NCBI GenBank assembly: GCA_025361705.1
Contig: JANYJW010000021.1
Span: forward strand, 124,001 to 188,000
DNA: 64,000 nucleotides
Source: Gemmatimonas sp.
Lineage (GTDB): Bacteria > Gemmatimonadota > Gemmatimonadetes > Gemmatimonadales > Gemmatimonadaceae
Direction: 5' to 3'
Below, one piece after another: positions 44,703 to 55,314 of the stretch; the first letter of the stretch is position 1, and each line of letters starts with the position of its first letter. The notes beneath the pieces were generated by a model. That model ran no database searches, was not told where the DNA came from, and saw only the letters and a program-made list of their open reading frames with translations. The translations under genes were made by a program, and so were the position numbers.

Positions 44703-44992
44703 CTGAACGCGCCATCGTGCCGCGTGCTGCCGGCGATGCGCCCGGCGGCACGCCACAGGTGGCCGAGCGCGTCGCCGAGCGCGTCGCCGAGCGCGTCGCC
44801 GAGCGCGTCGCCGAGCGCGTCGCCGAGCGCGTCGCGCGGGTGATCCGGCGCATCATCGGCGTGCCCGACTACGACGCCTATGTGGCGCACATGCGCGCAC
44901 ATCATCCGGGGCAGCACCCGATGTGCGAGCGCGACTTTCAGCAGGAGCGCCTCACGGCGCGGTACTCGCGCCCCGGCAACCGCTGCTGCTGA
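44699..44992 (+). CDS. YbdD/YjiX-family small protein with AERV repeat
   Basis: 97 residues. The C-terminal 48 residues match the YbdD family: IGVPDYDAYVAHMRAHHP, PMCERDFQQERLTARY and the final RCC. YbdD proteins partner CstA-type peptide/pyruvate transporters. Residues 20-46 are instead a heptad-like AERV tetrapeptide repeated six times, coded by a 12-base DNA repeat, which could form a coiled coil. The cstA gene is 6.5 kb away; here it is coupled by ATGA to a secreted peptidase gene, so peptide digestion and uptake may be linked. Confidence 0.85.
   Translation: MTERAIVPRAAGDAPGGTPQVAERVAERVAERVAERVAERVAERVARVIRRIIGVPDYDAYVAHMRAHHPGQHPMCERDFQQERLTARYSRPGNRCC
44762..44833. repeat. 12-base tandem repeat, six copies, in the YbdD-like gene
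   Basis: GCCGAGCGCGTC is repeated six times exactly, encoding Ala-Glu-Arg-Val units. Copy-number change would keep the frame. Exact identity of the copies suggests recent expansion. Confidence 0.95.
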
Positions 44993-44995
44993 GCG

Positions 44996-46258
44996 TCAGG
45001 CGGCGGGCTGCGGCCGCACGAGGAACAGTCCGACGGCGGCGAGGCACGCGCTCGCCGCGCCGACGGTGAACGCGAACGCGCTCCCCTTCCAGTCCCACAT
45101 CAGGCCAAACGCCACCGACGCCGGCAGCACGGCGGCGCCAATGACACCGTTGTACCAGCCGAACGCCACACCACGGCGCGTCGCCGGCACGAGGTCGGCC
45201 ACCAGCGCACGCTCGACGCCCTCAGTCAATCCGAAGAACAACCCATACGCGATGAAGAGCGCCCACGCGTGCCACGTCGCGCTCGCCATCGCGAAGCCGA
45301 GATAGACGATCGCGTACCACAGCCACCCCGCCGCGATCATCGTGCGGCGTCCCACGCGATCAGACCAGACGCCCGCCGGAATGCTGGTTGCCGACTTCAC
45401 CACGTGCAGCGCCGCCCAGAGAATCGGCAGCAGCGCCGCCGTCACGCCGAGTTGCGACGCGCGAAGCAGCAGGAAGGCGTCAGTGGAATTGCCGAGCGTG
45501 AAGAGCACAAGGACACCGAGGTAGCGCCAGAACGGCCGACCCAACGGCGCGTGGTCGGTGATCCGTGCGCCACTGGCAGGTGCCTGATCCCTGCCAGGTG
45601 GCGCGGCGGTGACTCCGAGTGCGGTCCGCCTCCCGTCCCCAGTCTCCCGTCGCCCGTCCTCCTTCACCCCAAACACAGCAACCAGCACCGCAATCACACC
45701 AGGAATGGCGGCAAGCAGAAACACGGTCCGCACGCTCACCCCCACCCACTGCAGCAGCACAAACGCGATGAGCGGGCCAATGAACGCCCCCGCGTGATCG
45801 GCTGCGCGCTGTGCCCCGAACGCGCGGCCGCGCTCGCTGCCCGGGACGGCGTCGGCGATCATTGCATCGCGCGGCGCACCGCGGATGCCCTTGCCCACGC
45901 GGTCGCCCACGCGAATGGCAAGCACGTGCCAGCCGGCCGTGGCAAACGCCACCAGCGGCCGCAGCGCCGACGCCAGCCCGTATCCCCACACCACCAGCGG
46001 CTTCCGCCGCGGCACTCGGTCCGACCACCACCCGCTCGCCAACTTGAGCAAGGACGCGGTGGCGTCGGCCGTGCCCTCGATGACGCCCACCCACGCCGCG
46101 CTCACTCCAAGCGTCGCGGTGAGAAACGCAGGCAGGAGCGGATAGATCATCTCGCTCGACGCATCGGTGAACAAACTCACCGCCGCAAGCGCCTTGACCG
46201 TGCGCGGGAGACGCGGGCGCGTGGCCTTGCCCGCTACCGGGCGCACGTCGGCGCTCAC
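44996..46258 (-). CDS. MFS transporter with repeat-derived central loop
   Basis: 420 residues, 12 membrane segments. The conserved cytoplasmic loop motif of the major facilitator superfamily is visible as GWWSDRVPRRKPLVV after helix 2 and GVWSDRVGRRTM after helix 8. The loop between the two halves (about residues 200-245) reads GRRETGDGRRTALG followed by a Gly/Pro-rich stretch; it is encoded by a heptad array plus a strong hairpin and looks inserted. GTG 46258 overlaps the sugar kinase stop (GTGA). In this operon a sugar or sugar-derived substrate is plausible, but the family does not prove it. Confidence 0.85.
   Translation of the reverse strand: MSADVRPVAGKATRPRLPRTVKALAAVSLFTDASSEMIYPLLPAFLTATLGVSAAWVGVIEGTADATASLLKLASGWWSDRVPRRKPLVVWGYGLASALRPLVAFATAGWHVLAIRVGDRVGKGIRGAPRDAMIADAVPGSERGRAFGAQRAADHAGAFIGPLIAFVLLQWVGVSVRTVFLLAAIPGVIAVLVAVFGVKEDGRRETGDGRRTALGVTAAPPGRDQAPASGARITDHAPLGRPFWRYLGVLVLFTLGNSTDAFLLLRASQLGVTAALLPILWAALHVVKSATSIPAGVWSDRVGRRTMIAAGWLWYAIVYLGFAMASATWHAWALFIAYGLFFGLTEGVERALVADLVPATRRGVAFGWYNGVIGAAVLPASVAFGLMWDWKGSAFAFTVGAASACLAAVGLFLVRPQPAA
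45567..45665. repeat. Hairpin plus heptad array inside the MFS gene
   Basis: GCGCCAC-T-GGCAGG (45567-45580) pairs with CCTGCC-AG-GTGGCGC (45590-45604) around a 9-base loop. After 26 bases five heptads follow: TCCCGTC, CCCAGTC, TCCCGTC, GCCCGTC and CTCCTTC (45631-45665). Together they fill the central cytoplasmic loop of the transporter, a place that tolerates insertions. Confidence 0.7.
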
Positions 46259-47487
46259 GTGTCGCCCCTCGACGCGCCGGCTGACGGCACCATCACGCGC
46301 GCCACCTCGCCCCGCGAGGTTCCGCTTCCCGGCACCTCGGCGTACGCAGCCATCCACGCGCTGGCAAAACGTTCCGCGTCGCCGTCAGTCACGAGCGCCC
46401 AGACGGCACCGCCGAATCCGGCGCCAAACGCGGTGGCCGCCATGGCGCCGTGTGCGCGCGCATGCGCCGCAAGCCACGCGGTCTGTGGCACCTGGTTCTG
46501 CAGGCTGTCCTCGGCCATCGCCTGCGAGTGCGACATGAGTCGCGCGGCATCGCCAGCGTCAGCCCGCGCGATGGCGTCGACCATCGCGGGCACCACGACC
46601 GTGGTCTCCTCACGGTACTGCCGCAGGCGCCCGCGCAGATACTCGGCGCTCACCGCCTCCGTGGCCGCGCGCTCAACGAGCGAGAGCGCCCGCTCGCACG
46701 CGTCGTGCGCAGACGCCAGCACCTCGCCAAGCGTCGCATCGGTGCGCCCGGTTTCCACGTTCCACACCGCCACAAGCGCCCGCATGGAGTCGGCCACGCG
46801 ATTGTACGCATGCATGGCGTTGCCCGTCTTGGTCGCCTTCACACCACTGTTCGCCACGACTATCCGCCAGTCGGCCGGCCACGGCACGCGGCGCAGCACG
46901 CGACCCGGCAGGTACGCATACTCGCCGACCTCGCCGGCGCGCGATGCGCAGATGGCAATGTGGTCCTGTGCGCCGCCGCGCGTGCCCACGCCACTGTCCC
47001 CGGCGAATCCCTCCCAGGCGGCGCCGCTCTCCACCGCCGCGCAGTATTGCGGAAAGGCGAGCTCGTCGCCCGCCACCGCGCGCCATTCCGAGGTCTCCCA
47101 CAGCGCGTTGGCATCGAACAGCGCCATGGTGACTGCCACGATGAGCGCGCTGGAACTGCTCAGGCCGCTCGACGTCGGAATCGAACTGCCGAGCTTCACC
47201 GCCACGCCCGTGCGCGCCGACGGAAAGTCGCGCGCTACCCGCCGCGCCACGGCCGCGAGGTACACCGACCAACGGGCCGACGCGGCAGGGGTCGCCGTGG
47301 GCGACAGCGTCACCTCCGCGGTCGACCGGCTGCGATTGTCGTGCACGCGCACCACGGGCGACGACAGCGCGTCCACCGCGGCGTGCATGTGCAAGGGCGT
47401 TGCGCACGTCAGCGACGGGCCGCCCGCGTAGTCGGTGTGCTTCCCCACCAGTTCCACCCGGCCGGGGACGCGATACTTCCAGGTCAC
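46255..47487 (-). CDS. GHMP-family sugar 1-kinase, galactokinase-like
   Basis: 410 residues. The three GHMP motifs are present: sugar-binding GRVELVGKHTDYAGG near residue 10, ATP loop SSIPTSSGLSSSSAL near 110 and the C-terminal GAGFGGAVWALV. Galactokinases have GEHTDY at the first site; here the Glu that contacts the sugar is Lys, so specificity probably differs from plain galactose. Overlaps at both ends (GTGA with the nucleotidyltransferase before and the MFS gene after). In an operon with a nucleotidyltransferase, the product is likely a sugar 1-phosphate to be activated with a nucleotide. Confidence 0.8.
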   Translation of the reverse strand: MTWKYRVPGRVELVGKHTDYAGGPSLTCATPLHMHAAVDALSSPVVRVHDNRSRSTAEVTLSPTATPAASARWSVYLAAVARRVARDFPSARTGVAVKLGSSIPTSSGLSSSSALIVAVTMALFDANALWETSEWRAVAGDELAFPQYCAAVESGAAWEGFAGDSGVGTRGGAQDHIAICASRAGEVGEYAYLPGRVLRRVPWPADWRIVVANSGVKATKTGNAMHAYNRVADSMRALVAVWNVETGRTDATLGEVLASAHDACERALSLVERAATEAVSAEYLRGRLRQYREETTVVVPAMVDAIARADAGDAARLMSHSQAMAEDSLQNQVPQTAWLAAHARAHGAMAATAFGAGFGGAVWALVTDGDAERFASAWMAAYAEVPGSGTSRGEVARVMVPSAGASRGDT

Positions 47488-48305
47488 GGCTCCACCACGA
47501 CGTCGCGCAGGTGGTCGGCGATTGTCGTGATGTCGGCCCGCCGTGACAGGTCGAGCACGCCCGCGTGCGCGTGGACCACGCGGAAGACCTCGCCCAGCTC
47601 GTGCGCCGCAATCATCACGGCATCCTGCAGCTCGAGTTCGCCCCGCACCGACGGCCGCACGCGGCGGCACGCCTCGAATATCCTGGGCGTGAAGCTCCAC
47701 AGGTTCATCGACACCCAGCGCTCGGCGCGCTGCGCCAGCGGATGGTCTGCGGCCGGCTTCTCCACAATTGCCTGCAGCACGCCCGCGGCGTCGATGTCGA
47801 GCAAGGCGTACGCCATCACCCGTTCGCGGTCGATGTTGCCGTCGCGCACGAGCGCCTCGCCCTCGTACGCCACCAGCCCCGCGCCGCCAAGCGCGCACAG
47901 GGCGTCGTAGGACGACACGGGGTAGTAGTTGTCGGAGTTAAGGACGAGCAACGGCGCGTCGCGCACGTGTCCATCCGCCGCCGCCACGGCGTCCGCGGTG
48001 CCGCGCGGCTCGGCCTGTACGGCCCAGCGCAGGCGCACGCGCCGCGGCGGCCTCTCGCGCTCGTAGTACGCGCGCATCATCGCGTGATCGGGCGCGACGA
48101 CGAGCGTCACATCGGTGATGCCGGCGTCGGCGAGCGCTGACAGCACGAAGTCGAGGAATGGCCGACCGAGCGTCGGCATCATCCCCTTCTGCCCGGCGTC
48201 GGCGGCGCGCGCTTGCGCATCGTCCAGTGCCACCGCGGCCTCGGCTCGCCGCATCCGGGAGCCGAGGCCGCGCGCAAGAACGACCGCCTGGGTGGTACGC
48301 GTCAT
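47484..48305 (-). CDS. Sugar-1-phosphate nucleotidyltransferase
   Basis: 273 residues, NTP_transferase fold. The nucleotide loop reads LARGLGSRMRR (variant of LAAGxGTRxx), followed after an unusual 28-residue insert (AEAAVALDDAQARAADAGQ) by KGMMPTLGRPFLDFVL with the phosphate-binding Lys. Metal Asp in VLNSDNYYP and the later VEKP. Which NTP or sugar is used cannot be read. Coupled by GTGA overlap to the sugar kinase downstream, so the two are likely consecutive steps. Confidence 0.82.
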   Translation of the reverse strand: MTRTTQAVVLARGLGSRMRRAEAAVALDDAQARAADAGQKGMMPTLGRPFLDFVLSALADAGITDVTLVVAPDHAMMRAYYERERPPRRVRLRWAVQAEPRGTADAVAAADGHVRDAPLLVLNSDNYYPVSSYDALCALGGAGLVAYEGEALVRDGNIDRERVMAYALLDIDAAGVLQAIVEKPAADHPLAQRAERWVSMNLWSFTPRIFEACRRVRPSVRGELELQDAVMIAAHELGEVFRVVHAHAGVLDLSRRADITTIADHLRDVVVEP

Positions 48306-48318
48306 GGGGAACCGTTCA

Positions 48319-50094
48319 TCAGTTGGCGTCTGCGCCTTCCGTCCAGAATCCCTGCAGCACCTTGTACACGCCGATTCCGCTGATCACCACGATGGTCAGG
48401 CACGCGTAGAACTGCCCCATGTGGCCGTAGAGGAACGCGCCCACGCCGAACAGCGCCGAATAGACGAAGCTGCAGCCGAGCACCCAGCCGAGCATCGCCT
48501 GCGCGATCCCGTCGGCCGGCGCCACGGCGCCCGCTTGGCCCACCACCGCCTTCCACCCCGGGCCCGACGGGCGCACAAGCTGGTAGAACTTCACCAGCGT
48601 CTCCTTGTCGGCCGGCGCCGTCAGCAGCGTCACCGACACCCACACGACCGTCGTGAATGCCACGGTCAGCAGCAGCGAGGTCGTCGACGAGATTTCCATT
48701 CCATTCTTGCGCGCCACGAAGAAGCCGAGCGCAAGCACGAACGACCCCACCATCGCCGAGATCTCGCTCCACGCGTTGATGCGCCACCAGAACCAGCGGA
48801 GCAGATACAGCAGTCCGGTGCCCGCGCCGACCGAGAGAATCAACTCGAACGCATCCTTGGCCGTGCCCAGCAGGTAGGAGAAGAGCACCGCACAGAACAT
48901 GAGCCCCGCCGTCGTCAGGCGGCCGACGAGCACGTAGTGCTTCTCCGTGCCGTCCTTCTTCATGAAGCGCCGGTAGAAGTCGTGCACCAGGTACGACGTC
49001 CCCCAGTTCAAGTGCGTCTCGATCGTCGAGCGATACGCGGCGAGCGTCCCGGCGACCACCAGCCCGAGGAAACCGGCCGGAAGGAACTTCATCATCGCCG
49101 GGTATGCCATGTCATGCCCGATGAGCGACGGATCCACATACGGGAACGTCTTGCCGATGTCGGCAAGCTGCGGATAGATGATCGTCGACGCGAGCGCGGT
49201 GAGGATCCACGGCCACGGACGCAGCGCGTAGTGCATCACGTTGAACAGCAGCGTGCCGATCACCGCGTCCTTTTCTGTCTTCGACGCGAGCATGCGCTGG
49301 GCGATGTAGCTGCCGCCCCCCGGTTCCGCACCCGGGTACCAGACCGACCACCACTGGACGGTCAGCGGGATGACAAAGACCACCAGGGCCGAGCTCCAGT
49401 TGCCGAAGTCCGGCAACATGTGCAGCGATGACGCCGGCACCTTTTCGAGCAGCCCGTGCAGCCCGCCGATTTCCGGCTGCTTCAGGGCGAAGTACGTCAC
49501 GGCAAAGGCGCCCGTCATCGTGATGCCGAACTGCAGCGTGTCGGTCACGAGCACGCCCCACAGCCCCGACACCGACGCGAAGAAGATGGTCATCACCGAG
49601 CAGACCAGCAGCGTCTGCCACGTCGGCCATCCGAGCACGATGTTGCCGATCTTGGCCGCCGCAAGGTTCACCGTGGCCATGATGAAGCAGTTGAAGAACA
49701 GCCCGAGGTACACCGCGCGGAAACCGCGCAGCATGCGCGCCGCCTTCCCCGAGTAGCGGATCTCGTAGAACTCCAGGTCCGTGAGCACCCGCGACCGGCG
49801 CCACATGCGCGCATAGAAGAACACCGTCATCATGCCCGTCAGCAGGAACGACCACCACGCCCAGTTCTCCGCCACGCCCTTCTCGCGCACCATGTTGGTC
49901 ACGAGGTTCGGCGTGTCGGTGGAAAAGGTGGTGGCCACCATCGAGATGCCCACCAGCCACCACGGCGCCGCCCGACCCGACGTGAAGAACTCCGTCGTGT
50001 TCTGGCTCGCCCGCCGAGCGAAGAAAATCGCCGGCAGGAACGAGATGATGATGCTGGCCGCGATGATGATCCAGTCGATTCGTGCGAAAGTCAT
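48319..50094 (-). CDS. Sodium:solute symporter (SSS family), sugar type
   Basis: 591 residues with about 14 membrane helices. The start FFTSGRAAPWWLVGISMVAT with helix 1-2 and the sodium-site region GLVVAGTLAAYRSTIETHLNWG are SSS-family hallmarks; the architecture is close to SGLT-type transporters and to those linked with sialic acid or hexosamine clusters. The ATG at 50094 is 43 bases after the Gfo/Idh-family stop codon, with heptad array H in that gap. Probable importer for the sugar processed by the neighbouring genes. Confidence 0.88.
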   Translation of the reverse strand: MTFARIDWIIIAASIIISFLPAIFFARRASQNTTEFFTSGRAAPWWLVGISMVATTFSTDTPNLVTNMVREKGVAENWAWWSFLLTGMMTVFFYARMWRRSRVLTDLEFYEIRYSGKAARMLRGFRAVYLGLFFNCFIMATVNLAAAKIGNIVLGWPTWQTLLVCSVMTIFFASVSGLWGVLVTDTLQFGITMTGAFAVTYFALKQPEIGGLHGLLEKVPASSLHMLPDFGNWSSALVVFVIPLTVQWWSVWYPGAEPGGGSYIAQRMLASKTEKDAVIGTLLFNVMHYALRPWPWILTALASTIIYPQLADIGKTFPYVDPSLIGHDMAYPAMMKFLPAGFLGLVVAGTLAAYRSTIETHLNWGTSYLVHDFYRRFMKKDGTEKHYVLVGRLTTAGLMFCAVLFSYLLGTAKDAFELILSVGAGTGLLYLLRWFWWRINAWSEISAMVGSFVLALGFFVARKNGMEISSTTSLLLTVAFTTVVWVSVTLLTAPADKETLVKFYQLVRPSGPGWKAVVGQAGAVAPADGIAQAMLGWVLGCSFVYSALFGVGAFLYGHMGQFYACLTIVVISGIGVYKVLQGFWTEGADAN

Positions 50095-50096
50095 CC

Positions 50097-50124
50097 GGGA
50101 GACGGTAGAGGGTAGACGGTAGAA
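50097..50124. repeat. Heptad array H (GGTAGAC)
   Basis: GGGAGAC, GGTAGAG, GGTAGAC and GGTAGAA lie in register in the 43-base spacer between the Gfo/Idh gene and the symporter start, i.e. inside an operon, within the symporter's ribosome-site region. Confidence 0.85.
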
Positions 50125-50137
50125 CGTGGGCTCCGAA

Positions 50138-51523
50138 CTACGCCTTCCAGTTGCCGCGCGTGAAATCAGGGAACTTCACCGGCGCCGATCCCTTGGCCAC
50201 CGAGATCTCGCTCAGCGGCAGCGGAGCGCTCCACGCCGCCGAGTCGTACACATCGATGTCGGGCGCGAGGCCCTCGCGCAGGCACTGTACCAGACGCCAC
50301 GCCATCACGAAGTCCATGCCGCCATGCCCGCCATTGCGCGCCTGCTCACCGAGCTTCGTCCACAACGGGTCCTCGAACTTCGGCTTCCAGGCGTCAATGG
50401 CACCCCAGCGCTCGCCGCCCGCCTGGCCCTCGACATAGATGCGCGCCGGATAGTCCTCGAAGAGCCCCTTCGTCCCCTGAATGGCATTGAGGCGCGAGTA
50501 CGGACGCGGGTTCGACACATCGTGCTGCAGCAGGATCGTGCGCCCCTTCGCCGTCTTGATGAGCGACGAATTGAGGTCGCCCGTCACGTACCGTTCGCTC
50601 CACTTGGCGCTCATCTTGTCCTTCACCGTCTCTTCGCGATGGATGCTGAGCCCGCGTTCCTCGGTGCTCATCGACACCATGTACTCGAACGTGTCGCCCT
50701 TGTGGATGTCGAGATACCACGACACCGGCCCCAGGCCATGCGTCGGGTACAGGTTGGCATTGTTCGTCGTGTGCCACCGGCGGCGCCACAGCCCTTCGTC
50801 GCGGTCCTCAAAAAGGATGCCGCGCAGGTCGTGCAAATAGGCGGCCGCGCCGTGCAGCGGCTCGCCGAAGACGCCGGCGTGTACCATGCGGTTCACCAGC
50901 ATCTCGTTGTAGCCGTAGTTGCAGTTCTCGAGCTGCAGGCAGTGCCGGCGGGTCTTCTCGCTGGCGTCCACCAGCTCCCACAGCTGCTTGAGCGTGGAGC
51001 CGAAGGGACATTCGCTCGACACGTGCTTGCCGGCCTTCATCGCGGCGAGCATCACCGGCACGTGCCATTCCCACGGCGTCGCCGTGTGGATGAAGTCGAT
51101 GTCGTCGCGCTGCACCAGCTGCTCGAACGCGTGGTCACCGTCGGTGAACAGCGCCGGCGCCGGCTGCCCCGCATCGGTCACCATCTTTGCAGCCTGCTTC
51201 GCCTTGTCGGGCACGTTGTCGCAGAGCGCCGTGATCTTCACACCCGGGCAACCCAGAAACTCGTGCAGCACCGACCGCCCACGCAGGCCCGTGCCGACAA
51301 TGGCAATGCGCACGACGTCGCGCTTCTCGAACGGCACCCCCTTCATTGACTTGGCCCCCGCTGGCGACACCGGGGCAAGATCGGGATGTGCGCCCGCCGT
51401 CGCCGACTCGGCCACTGCGGGAGAAAAGACGCCCGATGCGCCCAGGGCGGCGCCGGCCAAGGCGGCGGATTTCAGCAGGTCGCGGCGGCTCAGGCCGGCA
51501 CGATCATCGGGCGGCATCGACAC
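50138..51523 (-). CDS. Secreted Gfo/Idh/MocA-family protein, GH109-like glycosidase
   Basis: 461 residues with a Tat signal: GLSRRDLLKSAALAGAALG. The Rossmann loop IVGTGLRGRSVLHEF is near residue 95, and blocks HTATPWEWH, ENCNYGYNEMLVNRM and YPTHGLGPVSWYLDI fit family GH109, whose NAD-dependent members release alpha-N-acetylgalactosamine by a redox mechanism. Tat export fits, because the NAD cofactor must be bound before export. ATG 51523. First gene of the operon for uptake (SSS), activation (nucleotidyltransferase) and phosphorylation (GHMP kinase). GalNAc as the sugar is my inference. Confidence 0.85.
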   Translation of the reverse strand: MSMPPDDRAGLSRRDLLKSAALAGAALGASGVFSPAVAESATAGAHPDLAPVSPAGAKSMKGVPFEKRDVVRIAIVGTGLRGRSVLHEFLGCPGVKITALCDNVPDKAKQAAKMVTDAGQPAPALFTDGDHAFEQLVQRDDIDFIHTATPWEWHVPVMLAAMKAGKHVSSECPFGSTLKQLWELVDASEKTRRHCLQLENCNYGYNEMLVNRMVHAGVFGEPLHGAAAYLHDLRGILFEDRDEGLWRRRWHTTNNANLYPTHGLGPVSWYLDIHKGDTFEYMVSMSTEERGLSIHREETVKDKMSAKWSERYVTGDLNSSLIKTAKGRTILLQHDVSNPRPYSRLNAIQGTKGLFEDYPARIYVEGQAGGERWGAIDAWKPKFEDPLWTKLGEQARNGGHGGMDFVMAWRLVQCLREGLAPDIDVYDSAAWSAPLPLSEISVAKGSAPVKFPDFTRGNWKA

Positions 51524-51634: not shown

Positions 51635-52948
51635 TCAGCCCGGTGGAACGCGCGGCTTCGCGGTGCGGCCGGCATCGCCGCTGCCACTCCCCGTCGAGCT
51701 TGAGGCTGGCGCGGTCGACTGCCCGCCGGACGAGCCGCTGGCGTCGCCCGACGAGGCGCGTGGAGTGCTCGCTGGCGCCGCCGACTGTCCGCCGGTGCGA
51801 CGCGTATATCCGGCGCCCTTGACGGCCTGACCCTCGACTTGCGATGTCGTGCCCGGCGTGCTCGGCACAATCACCAGCGGGAGAGGACCGTAGTAGTACC
51901 CGCTGTATTGGCCGTTGTAGAGGCCGTAGTCGTACCGGCCATATCCGTAGCCGTAGCCCTGACCGTAGCCGTAGTACCCTGACATGCACGGATCGCCGGA
52001 GTAGGCGCTGTACGTCGTCGGCAGGTACCCGGCGCGGCAGTTCCACTCGTCACCACGCAGTCGCGAACCTCCAAAATACCCGCCGCCACCTGACGCGCCC
52101 TCCCAGGCGTTGCGACCCGTCTGATCCGGCGCCCTGCGCTGCACGGCAAACCGCGTCGGGTACGACAGCGCGACCATCAGGTCGATCATGCTGGGTGGCA
52201 TGCCGGCATCGGCAAGGCGCACCAGCTCCCTCGCGTTCAGTACAAAGCCCTGCCCGAGTTCATTCAGCCACGCCTCGGCTACCTGCCCATCCACCGCCTT
52301 GGCGACCTCGAGCACCGCATCGGTCCGTACCGCTTCGCCGGCCCCCTGCCGCGCGTACCGCGCGGCAAAGGCCTGCGTCGGCGCGAGGGCAAGGGTCACA
52401 GAATCCATGACGGCGCCAGCGACCTTCGTGATCGTGTACCCCGACGGGCGATAGTGGATTGCGCGCGCCGTCGCGTTGCCACCCACCGTCGTGCCGCGCA
52501 CCTCAATCCAGTCGCCCTCCGACGAGATGGCAAATACGCTGCTCCCCTTCACCACGGTCTGGCCGCACGTGAACTCCGAGCGCAAGAACAGACGGCGATT
52601 GTCCGCCGACCACGTGCCCGATTCCCATCCCGGACAGCGCTCCACCGTCTTCGCCACGCGCTGGCCCGTGGCGGCAATGGCTTCGCGATGCACCACGGTG
52701 CCGTTCGCAACCACGGTGACTTCCACCCCTTGGCCGCTGTTGGCAGGCACGATGCACACCAAGCCGTCGGTCGTGGCGCCAGTCCAGCTGCGTACAGTCT
52801 GTCCGTTGCTCGCGCTCCAGCAGCCCAGCCACGGTTGCCAGTGCGCATCAGGCACCTGCGCCGTCAGCAGACCGGCGCTCGCGAGGCTCGCCAGCATCAA
52901 TCCGCACCAAGCGGCGATGCGGCGAGGAACCTGTGGGTCCGTGCGCAT
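51635..52948 (-). CDS. Secreted Tyr/Gly-rich protein, function unknown
   Basis: 437 residues with a signal peptide (about 1-32). Residues 33-130 form a domain with four Cys (CWSA, CIVP, CPGW, CGQT) likely disulfide-bonded; then a helical segment; a Gly/Tyr repeat region (YYGYGQGYGYGYGRYDYG, about residues 320-355); and a Ser/Gly/Thr-rich tail. ATG 52948 has a strong ribosome site (TAGGAGG) seven bases upstream, which fixes the start. Composition suggests a surface-exposed protein; I do not recognise the family. The preceding outer-membrane gene is 10 bases away, so they are one unit. Confidence 0.65.
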   Translation of the reverse strand: MRTDPQVPRRIAAWCGLMLASLASAGLLTAQVPDAHWQPWLGCWSASNGQTVRSWTGATTDGLVCIVPANSGQGVEVTVVANGTVVHREAIAATGQRVAKTVERCPGWESGTWSADNRRLFLRSEFTCGQTVVKGSSVFAISSEGDWIEVRGTTVGGNATARAIHYRPSGYTITKVAGAVMDSVTLALAPTQAFAARYARQGAGEAVRTDAVLEVAKAVDGQVAEAWLNELGQGFVLNARELVRLADAGMPPSMIDLMVALSYPTRFAVQRRAPDQTGRNAWEGASGGGGYFGGSRLRGDEWNCRAGYLPTTYSAYSGDPCMSGYYGYGQGYGYGYGRYDYGLYNGQYSGYYYGPLPLVIVPSTPGTTSQVEGQAVKGAGYTRRTGGQSAAPASTPRASSGDASGSSGGQSTAPASSSTGSGSGDAGRTAKPRVPPG

Positions 52949-52958
52949 GGTTCGCCTC

Positions 52959-53711
52959 CTAAAAGCGAATGGCAAGGCCCGCCGTCACGGCAAGGCCCGA
53001 CAAGTCGATGCGGTTGAATCCGGAGAAGTCACTGCTCATTCGTGCGCTACCAAGGTCGTACCGTGCCTCGGTGACGAGTCCCATGCGCGCCGTCATCGCA
53101 TAGTCCATGCCCACCGCGCCATAGGTCGTCGTGACCCATCCACTCGACTCCATGGTCGTGCCAAAGACGTCGAGTGTCTTGTAATCCACGAAGTCGCCGC
53201 TCTGGCGGAACCGGTACCACGTGTAGCCTACGCCTGTCGCCACATATGGCACGAGACGCGTTGGCACCCACGCCAACTGCCCAATCGAGCGCCCTGGCGG
53301 CACCAAAGCGTAGCGAACGCCCACTGTCAGTGCCGTCCGACGCAGGTCGGTGGATTGCTCGATGGGACGGTTGCTGTTGTCCACCCAGTCCCGGTACTCG
53401 CTCGGCACGCTCCGGCCCGACGAGCCGGCACCCAACACCACCGCCGTGCGGCCCGTGACACGGATGGCGATGTCGCCAGAATACGAACTGCTCGCAAAGC
53501 TGGCTTGTCCCACGGTGAGATGCTGGCGCACGAACGCGTAGACATCGCTGCCCGTCGAGGGCATCGCCCGGCCCCCGCGCAGCGTGATGCTCAGACGCGG
53601 GGCGCCAAACAGGAACCCGTCGCCAGAGCCCGGCTGCGCCCCGACACCCAGGGGAACCAGTATCGCGCAGGCCCACAGGGCGGCGCGCAACGCACGGCAA
53701 CGATCACGCAT
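52959..53711 (-). CDS. Outer-membrane beta-barrel protein
   Basis: 250 residues. A signal peptide (MRDRCRALRAALWACAILVP) is followed by amphipathic strands with Gly and aromatic residues; it starts the mature part with a LSITLRGGRAMP strand and ends in AVTAGLAIRF, a C-terminal Phe typical for barrels assembled by BAM. Strands such as VPYVATGVGYTWYRF and AMTARMGLVTEARYDLG resemble OmpA-like/OmpW-like small barrels. ATG 53711 with GAGGAG eight bases upstream. Co-transcribed with the Tyr/Gly-rich protein downstream. Function unknown. Confidence 0.75.
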   Translation of the reverse strand: MRDRCRALRAALWACAILVPLGVGAQPGSGDGFLFGAPRLSITLRGGRAMPSTGSDVYAFVRQHLTVGQASFASSSYSGDIAIRVTGRTAVVLGAGSSGRSVPSEYRDWVDNSNRPIEQSTDLRRTALTVGVRYALVPPGRSIGQLAWVPTRLVPYVATGVGYTWYRFRQSGDFVDYKTLDVFGTTMESSGWVTTTYGAVGMDYAMTARMGLVTEARYDLGSARMSSDFSGFNRIDLSGLAVTAGLAIRF

Positions 53712-53771
53712 GGTGCGGCTCCTCAACGGAGCGAGAAAACGTCTGAACCGGCCGCATCCGACCTCGATTGC

Positions 53772-53799
53772 AGTATACACGATCCTGCCCGAGGTCATA
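53772..53799 (-). promoter_or_regulatory. Possible promoter of the outer-membrane gene pair
   Basis: On the minus strand TATGAC (53799-53794) and TATACT (53777-53772) are 16 bases apart, 60 bases before the start codon. The -10 is near-perfect, the -35 weak. Confidence 0.45.
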
Positions 53800-53896
53800 C
53801 CCCCCGGCGAGCCTGGTGTTCGCCGCAAGGGAATGTCGGAGGAACCGGGTCACCAAGTCCATACACCGGTACTCCGCGACCCATCGCCAATCGCAC

Positions 53897-53950: not shown

Positions 53951-54940
53951 CTATGCCCTGCTCCTGACCTCGGAATCATCCCCGACCGTGACGACTCCCT
54001 TCACCCCCTCCAGCACCACCCGGTCGCCCACCAGGGAATGCGTCAGCGTGCATCGCGCCAGCATGCTCTTGGTGCCGATGAGCGTGTGGCTCACCGTGCA
54101 ACTCAGCAGTTTCGACTCGGCAAGCACGCAGACGTTCGGCCCGATGGTCGACCCCGTCAACACCACGTCGTCCTCGATGTACACCGGGTCGATGATCGTG
54201 CAGTCCTCGAGATCCCTCGGCTTCCGCGCAAGTCCCTTCTCCAGCATCACGCGGTTGGTGTCGAGCAGCGTGTCGATCTTGCCCGCATCGTACCACCCGG
54301 CCACGTCGAGCACCTTCAGCTTGGCGCCGTGGTCGATCATGTACTGGAATGCGTCCGTCAGGTAGTACTCGCCCTGATTCTTGGGCGCGGCCAGCACGGC
54401 AGCTATTCCCTCGTACAGCAGCTTCCAGTCGCGGATGTAGTACAGGCCGATGTTGGCCCGCTTGGAGATCGGCGTCTTGGGCTTCTCGATGATCTTGGTC
54501 ATGTGGCCGTTGGCGTCGGTCACCACCACGCCGAAGCGCTGGTAATCCTCGACTTCCTTGGTCCAGATGATCCCGTCATCGAGGCTCGCCTTGATCACCC
54601 CGAGGTCGGCGTCGAATATCGTGTCGACGAAGATGATCAGCACCGGCTCGTCCACGCGCGGCTTGGCCAGCGCCACCGCCCCCGCCGTGCCGTCCTGCAC
54701 CTGCTGCTCGATGAAGGTCGCCGGCAGGTCGCTGTAGGCGGCGCGTGCGTGCGCCTCCACCGCGTCCTTCAGGTGCCCCGTGATGTAGATGACCTCGCTC
54801 ACGTCGCCCAGCCGGCGCACGTCGTCGAGCACATAGTCCATCACCGGCTTGCCGCACACCTTCAGCATCGGCTTGGGCACGGTGTGCGTGTGCGGACGCA
54901 GGCGCGTCCCCTTGCCGGCCAGCGGAATGATCACTTTCAC
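53951..54940 (-). CDS. Sugar-phosphate nucleotidyltransferase with C-terminal beta-helix
   Basis: 329 residues. N-terminal NTP_transferase domain: LAGKGTRLRPHTHTVPKPML (G-x-G-T-R then Lys), VDTIFDADLGV for the metal Asp and EKPKTPISK; C-terminal left-handed beta-helix hexapeptides (IIDPVYIEDDVVLTGSTIGP). This fits glucose-1-phosphate thymidylyl-/uridylyl- or mannose-1-phosphate guanylyltransferases. GTG 54940 overlaps the stop of the cupin gene before it (GTGA). A nucleotidyltransferase and a cupin side by side resemble a split GMP-PMI bifunctional enzyme, suggesting a nucleotide-sugar (perhaps GDP-mannose) step. Confidence 0.87.
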   Translation of the reverse strand: MKVIIPLAGKGTRLRPHTHTVPKPMLKVCGKPVMDYVLDDVRRLGDVSEVIYITGHLKDAVEAHARAAYSDLPATFIEQQVQDGTAGAVALAKPRVDEPVLIIFVDTIFDADLGVIKASLDDGIIWTKEVEDYQRFGVVVTDANGHMTKIIEKPKTPISKRANIGLYYIRDWKLLYEGIAAVLAAPKNQGEYYLTDAFQYMIDHGAKLKVLDVAGWYDAGKIDTLLDTNRVMLEKGLARKPRDLEDCTIIDPVYIEDDVVLTGSTIGPNVCVLAESKLLSCTVSHTLIGTKSMLARCTLTHSLVGDRVVLEGVKGVVTVGDDSEVRSRA

Positions 54941-55314
54941 GGTGCGCTCGTCCCCTCTCGACCGTAGCGGTCGTTCAATCGTACGACGTCGTCGAGGTGC
55001 GGCGTACTCGCCTCCAGCACCTCGCAGTCCGTCACGGCTTCCATCTGGTGGATCACGCCCGGCGTGTTGCGGTAGCTCTCGCCCACGGCGAACGGCACCT
55101 CCACCAGCCCGCGGCCATCCTTGCCGTCGATGCGGTAGATCATCTGCCCGCGCAGCAGGTGAATCGTCTCGTCCTTCTCGCGGTGGTACTGCACGCTCAG
55201 CGCGTGCCCCGCCTTGATGTGCAGCACCTTGCCCACGTAGAGCGCGTTGGCGGCCCAGATCACCTCGTGCCCCCACGGCTTCTGCACGATCGTCACCTTC
55301 TGCGTTCCGTCCAC
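54937..55314 (-). CDS. Cupin, mannose-6-phosphate isomerase-like domain
   Basis: 125 residues. A single cupin barrel with metal motif HREKDETIHLLRGQM and the second motif GVIHQMEA, starting with VQKPWGHEVIWA, the pattern of the type II phosphomannose isomerase cupin that normally forms the C-terminal domain of mannose-1-phosphate guanylyltransferase. It is here a separate gene, overlapping the nucleotidyltransferase. GTG 55314, one base after the polyferredoxin stop codon. Confidence 0.85.
   Translation of the reverse strand: MDGTQKVTIVQKPWGHEVIWAANALYVGKVLHIKAGHALSVQYHREKDETIHLLRGQMIYRIDGKDGRGLVEVPFAVGESYRNTPGVIHQMEAVTDCEVLEASTPHLDDVVRLNDRYGREGTSAP

Follow-up and report, generated by a model that had tools for sequence, protein, structure and literature searches.

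A candidate N-acetylhexosamine salvage cluster with a variant galactokinase-family kinase, conserved in Gemmatimonadota

Two described routes, that of Bifidobacterium with NahK and that of Pseudomonas with AmgK and MurU, use an anomeric amino-sugar kinase to feed a nucleotide sugar; their kinases have the APH fold, and their transferases are others than the one considered here. The present cluster comprises five minus-strand genes at positions 44996-51523 of a 64,000-nucleotide stretch (the window) of Gemmatimonas sp. (Gemmatimonadota, Gemmatimonadaceae; GenBank assembly GCA_025361705.1, contig JANYJW010000021.1, positions 124,001 to 188,000). It encodes a glycoside hydrolase family 109 (GH109) protein, a sodium/solute symporter (SSS), a sugar-1-phosphate nucleotidyltransferase (NT), a GHMP sugar kinase, and a major facilitator superfamily (MFS) transporter (Table 1). 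The genome is a draft of 2.97 Mb in 71 contigs, 93% complete, from a soil-type bacterium. Bifidobacterium NahK is an APH-fold kinase (PMC6264712), whereas in the window a GHMP kinase is paired with an NT gene of its own that overlaps it. The polysaccharide utilization locus (PUL) BT4240-50 of Bacteroides thetaiotaomicron holds a GH109 alpha-N-acetylgalactosaminidase, an MFS transporter, and an N-acetylgalactosamine (GalNAc) kinase, and thus resembles the window in providing release, import, and phosphorylation from one locus (PMC11992087). According to the available text of that source, the PUL serves mucin breakdown, and its kinase is a relative of NahK with the APH fold and not a GHMP protein; neither an SSS nor a coupled NT is mentioned there (PMC11992087). 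Because this PUL is already described, the salvage concept is not wholly new. The original prediction, made from the letters of the window, knew of no described operon with exactly this set; a similar idea was in fact known, although the kinase named there, being of the APH fold, is unrelated (PMC11992087, available text).

As predicted from its sequence, this is a conserved cluster by which a sugar would be released, imported, phosphorylated at C1, and nucleotidylated. On balance, we favour the reading that it salvages an N-acetylhexosamine (HexNAc), most likely GalNAc, to a nucleotide sugar. The GH109 protein, folded with NAD+ and exported by the twin-arginine translocation (Tat) system, would act in the periplasm, cleaving the terminal amino sugar off glycans, presumably by the mechanism of characterised GH109 enzymes: transient oxidation at C3, elimination, and re-addition of water. 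The SSS would import the free sugar with Na+, and the kinase, which we call K-type, would phosphorylate it at C1. The NT, translationally coupled to the kinase, would then turn the sugar-1-phosphate into a nucleoside diphosphate (NDP) sugar, probably UDP-HexNAc, and an epimerase encoded elsewhere would feed the UDP-N-acetylglucosamine (UDP-GlcNAc) pool. Flux would run in this direction, and the genes are presumably transcribed as an operon.

Open reading frame (ORF) coordinates and Pfam matches confirm the predicted layout on one strand, and all five family assignments lie above the Pfam cut-offs, which bears out the earlier calls of SSS symporter, nucleotidyltransferase, GHMP kinase, and MFS transporter. 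GH109 and SSS are separated by 43 nucleotides (nt) and SSS and NT by 13 nt; the only overlaps are those between NT and kinase and between kinase and MFS, both of them GTGA in the sequence, as the original prediction had stated.

The GH109 protein matches the C-terminal domain model PF21252 (Glyco_hydro_109_C) at 167.9 bits (cut-off 27), and its Rossmann domain (PF01408) and Tat signal (TIGR01409) also score above their cut-offs. It shares 40.6% identity across 409 aligned positions with AmGH109A of Akkermansia muciniphila (PDB 6t2b), for which Tyr226, His259, and His404 have been proposed as catalytic residues, His404 as the base/acid at C3 (PMC10755693). These map to Y229, H262, and H400 in the window protein, H400 lying inside a GGHGG loop that the two proteins have in common, while the loop at 228-242 differs (HCLVTQLG vs HDLRGILF). 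Membership of GH109 is supported by the domain match together with the presence of the Tyr, the His, and the GGHGG His, and the activity is predicted from this likeness. The description as a GH109-like, Tat-exported glycosidase therefore stands, and the concern that glycosidase residues might be lacking when aligned with a characterised GH109 enzyme did not materialise. PF21252 occurs in 181 of the 298 genomes of the phylum, nearly always as a single copy outside family f11.

Membership of the kinase in the GHMP superfamily is indicated by PF00288 and PF08544, a Gly/Ser-rich ATP loop (PTSSGLSSSSA), an invariant Asp175, and the fold. In alignment with galactokinases (TIGR00131; PDB 6tep, 1pie, 2dei), it keeps R10, H17, D19, the catalytic D175, and Y228. 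It departs from them in scoring 108.2 bits against the TIGR00131 gal_kin model (cut-off 226.65) and in lacking Glu43 of the GRxNLIGEHTDY signature. We take Glu43 to be a galactokinase sugar contact near galactose O6 that is kept in the GalNAc kinase GALK2, a role for which we found no confirming statement in the open literature. The corresponding residue is Lys16 in the window kinase and Lys in each of the 41 further members of the family examined from the phylum (42/42). It is Glu in 11 distant homologues (our loci L075-L085), except for Asp in L085. The phylum set, collected by whole-protein search, gives the unbiased count, since for loci L086-L164 one of two patterns used in the scan contained GKH, which in part builds in the invariance of Lys there. 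An AlphaFold2 (AF2) model of the kinase (predicted local distance difference test score, pLDDT, 93; predicted TM-score, pTM, 0.93) retrieved galactokinases and GalNAc kinase in Foldseek, with GalNAc-bound human GALK2 (2a2d) at the top query TM-score of 0.79. Human GALK2 (PDB 2a2c/2a2d) shares this GHMP fold and is a GalNAc C1 kinase, an activity that is only predicted for the window protein; it is about 20% identical, has Glu where the window has Lys, and is a stand-alone eukaryotic enzyme. From sequence comparison, the kinase belongs to a branch of the galactokinase family that is both distinct and widespread, and no substrate description for it was found in the open-access literature. The label of a variant sugar kinase is apt, as Lys replaces Glu43, unlike in both galactokinases and GalNAc kinases, and Lys16 could mean a sugar different from theirs.

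Whole-protein search found the kinase to be widespread in Gemmatimonadota. In all 29 close loci, the gene immediately upstream of the kinase is NT; SSS, too, is located upstream in 28 of them, the stretch of the remaining locus (L017) ending first. In 41 wider K-type loci, some of them cut by contig ends, GH109 was found in 25, SSS in 31, and either in 35; in the 41 genomes for which the place of GH109 was listed, it was at most 10 kb from the kinase in 35 and on another contig in six. Over 298 genomes, the presence of GH109 and that of the kinase are associated (both, 81; kinase only, 15; GH109 only, 100; neither, 102; Fisher p ~3e-9, uncorrected for shared ancestry), with the kinase types assigned for this table by score and not by residue 16. 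A scan of GTDB genomes returned at least 456 kinase relatives, and the 79 loci kept come from Planctomycetota, Acidobacteriota, Actinomycetota (Cutibacterium, Brachybacterium, Propioniciclava, Dermabacteraceae), Neomarinimicrobiota, Bacteroidetes/Rhodothermales, and Gemmatimonadota. Of 97 loci tested, from several phyla, 90 have NT next to the kinase, and in 61 the two genes share a 4-nt (NTGA) overlap. The gene arrangement is far beyond chance, and the NT-kinase pairing is ancient. The MFS gene follows the kinase in 26/29 close relatives, but the majority of more distant loci lack it; we therefore rejected it as a core part of the cluster and regard it as a near-clade addition, probably co-transcribed at the window locus in an accessory role. 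Thus, when co-occurrence of the five families was sought in other genomes, NT-kinase, SSS, and GH109 proved to be kept across the phylum, and the MFS gene in the near clade only.

The sugar is best approached through the distant loci L075-L085, whose different kinase carries the standard Glu signature (E-type). Several of these kinases adjoin a GH109 protein (~36-46% identical) and an SSS of the same family (51-56% identical), and a different NT family (motif RYGxLKQLxPxGPxGE) lies near the kinase in L075, L079, and L084. On sequence grounds, this argues for kinase and NT having been swapped inside one pathway around the same GH109 and SSS, which in turn would imply one shared sugar. Of the solved structures, human GalNAc kinase (2a2c) is the one closest to the L075 kinase, at 196 bits compared with 142 for galactokinase, and this GALK2-like sequence in a sister kinase points to GalNAc as that sugar.

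Other neighbours and the gene content of the genome can be read in the same way. A GH20 beta-N-acetylhexosaminidase gene lies directly downstream of the kinase in L057 (8e-121), a NagB-PIG-L gene adjoins it in L155 and L156, and GlmM-like mutase genes are found near it in Cutibacterium, Propioniciclava, L112, L133, and L146; by their predicted functions, these neighbours fit an amino sugar. Neither GalT (PF01087) nor NagA, canonical GalE, or canonical GlmU above cut-off was found in the window genome, absences that are provisional because the draft is 93% complete. Its best match to the GlmU model is an RmlA-long/GlmU-like nucleotidyltransferase upstream of the cluster (83 bits, cut-off 366.85). 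On another contig, a fused NagB-PIG-L glucosamine-6-phosphate deaminase-like gene stands beside an SSS gene of a different type (L179:6739-10464). Because of these absences, and because NagB-PIG-L has its own SSS, UDP-HexNAc salvage would be more natural than Leloir metabolism. The genome also encodes a true galactokinase on another contig (TIGR00131, 267 bits), which makes galactose unlikely for the window kinase. That gene follows a 592-amino acid (aa) ORF (L180:389-3300) with no family above cut-off.

The NT has PF00483, the nucleotide-binding motifs, and the fold of a sugar-1-phosphate nucleotidyltransferase. Positions G13, G15, R17, K40, Q97, D125, E182, K183, and N201, in motifs for binding nucleotide and sugar phosphate, are invariant. 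Its AF2 model (pLDDT 95) has the GalU/RmlA/ST0452/GlmU fold in Foldseek, which does not separate UDP-glucose, dTDP-glucose, and HexNAc enzymes, and it scored below cut-off with each UDP-HexNAc pyrophosphorylase model (Arch_glmU 84.9 against 292, glmU 30.9 against 366.85, MurU 20.5 against 250). The SSS matches PF00474 (SSF) at 92.6 bits (cut-off 22.8) and, in the PDB, best matches vSGLT (2xq2, 97 bits). In the alignment, Q69, E88, and N260 of vSGLT, which we assume to be its galactose contacts, are replaced by T, A, and G.

Several points weigh against GalNAc salvage as the function. No result fixes either the sugar or the nucleotide, and we know of no precedent among GalNAc kinases for Lys at the Glu43 position. 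The K-type profile scores 126 bits to galactokinase 6tep vs 120 to GALK2 2a2c. GH109 is missing from 15 of 96 K-type genomes, and most of the loci outside Gemmatimonadota, among the matches listed, lack both GH109 and SSS, so that the core that is widespread consists of NT and kinase, with GH109-SSS joining it in some lineages. Counts of neighbours are low, come partly from one lineage, and are uncorrected for background. Other neighbours, namely GH29-like ORFs close to the cluster at four loci and the GH35 in L099, point elsewhere or fail to discriminate. In place of canonical GalE, the genome has a GalE-like protein below cut-off.

The strongest alternative concerns Lys16, which could pair with a negative group on an acidic or C6-modified sugar (a uronate, an N-acetylhexosaminuronate, or a sulfated or phosphorylated hexosamine), with GH109 and SSS of matching specificity and an NT making the corresponding NDP-sugar. 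We hold this to be rather doubtful, although the invariance of Lys16 leaves it some weight. All 42 K-type kinases examined in the phylum have Lys at this position and retain the remaining sugar-binding and catalytic residues of galactokinase, and plant galacturonokinase is likewise without that Glu. The vSGLT galactose contacts are lost in the SSS, and GH188, a related NAD-dependent glycosidase fold, accommodates a charged C6 group (PMC10755693). However, E-type, GALK2-like kinases hold the same GH109 and SSS context, no genes of a uronate pathway were recognised beside the unit, and a Lys could hydrogen-bond a neutral hydroxyl too. Lys16 also suggested glucuronate or galacturonate as the leading reading; we ranked these lower because, in the sister lineages, the position next to GH109 and SSS is filled by a GALK2-like kinase that has Glu. 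A broader suggestion, which we put forward tentatively, is that the specificity of the K-type kinases is a new one among sugar-1-kinases, possibly directed at an acidic or C6-modified amino sugar, and that together with the coupled NT they form an undescribed nucleotide-sugar salvage module. Such a module would range over Gemmatimonadota, Planctomycetota, Acidobacteriota, Actinomycetota (including Cutibacterium), and Bacteroidota-like lineages, and current family models would see it only as below-cut-off galactokinase relatives.

It is improbable that the K-type kinase is a second galactokinase and the NT a galactose 1-phosphate uridylyltransferase that replaces the missing GalT, as in a pyrophosphorylase route. 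The galactokinase-like fold, the missing GalT, the GH35 near L099, and galE-like ORFs seen by eye near L094 and L117 would agree with such a route, but GH109 acts on N-acetylgalactosaminides. Galactose also ranks low because another gene of the genome encodes a galactokinase that passes the TIGR00131 cut-off, which the window kinase does not reach, and because the presumed vSGLT contacts are not conserved in the SSS. We judge it equally improbable that the cluster recycles GlcNAc or N-acetylmuramic acid, recovering cell-wall amino sugars as UDP-sugars in functional analogy to AmgK/MurU. The pairing of kinase and NT, the weak match of NT to MurU, and the NagB-PIG-L and GH20 neighbours in some loci are consistent with this, yet GH109 is no known peptidoglycan hydrolase, the MurU score is far under its cut-off, and the NagB-PIG-L gene of the window genome, on another contig, comes with an adjacent SSS gene of its own. 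Of the amino-sugar salvage line originally predicted, the amino sugar fits GH109, the GALK2-like sister kinase, and the GH20, NagB-PIG-L, and GlmM-like neighbours, while the MFS transporter falls outside the core.

Table 1. Features of the cluster in the window, with two kinase-neighbouring genes of other loci.
Feature	Position	Strand	Details
GH109-family NAD-dependent glycosidase	50138..51523	-	461 aa; PF21252 2e-49, PF01408 7.5e-12; PDB 6t2b 331 bits
Tat (SRRDLL) signal, GH109 residues 11-38	51410..51493	-	TIGR01409 21.0 bits, cut-off 16.7
His400 codon, GGHGG loop of GH109	50324..50326	-	AmGH109A His404 by residue mapping
SSS sodium/solute symporter	48319..50094	-	591 aa; PF00474 3.1e-26
Sugar-1-phosphate nucleotidyltransferase (NT)	47484..48305	-	273 aa; PF00483 1.2e-17; conserved motifs
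GTGA overlap, NT stop / kinase start	47484..47487	-	sequence
GHMP sugar kinase (K-type), GTG start	46255..47487	-	410 aa; PF10509, PF00288, PF08544
Lys16 codon of kinase (PGRVELVG-K-HTDY)	47440..47442	-	alignment
GTGA overlap, kinase stop / MFS start	46255..46258	-	sequence
MFS transporter, GTG start	44996..46258	-	420 aa; PF07690 9.4e-38
GH20 gene, L057	L057:4678-6345		family match
GH29 alpha-L-fucosidase gene near kinase, L068	L068:6777-8159		family match

Around the cluster, a cupin gene and the RmlA-long/GlmU-like nucleotidyltransferase gene lie upstream of GH109 in the window (53951-55314, minus strand), and the two keep this place in at least nine relatives. Between this pair and GH109 are two ORFs (51635-53828, minus strand), one of them Gly/Tyr-rich, that have no Pfam match and, in the loci compared, recur upstream of GH109 in L034 alone. 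A tandem repeat with a unit close to GACGCGCTCGGC was seen by eye at 44770-44840, between the MFS gene and an S9 peptidase gene.

The NT-kinase pair, with an invariant change at what is presumably a galactokinase sugar contact, offers a concrete target for assigning roles to hundreds of genes in which family models at present recognise no more than a likeness to galactokinase. Should the substrate be GalNAc, the pair would represent a bacterial GHMP-fold route, as against the APH fold of the named characterised bacterial GalNAc C1-kinases, and would explain how Gemmatimonadota could recover amino sugars. Should it be another sugar, the cluster would define a new nucleotide-sugar salvage route.

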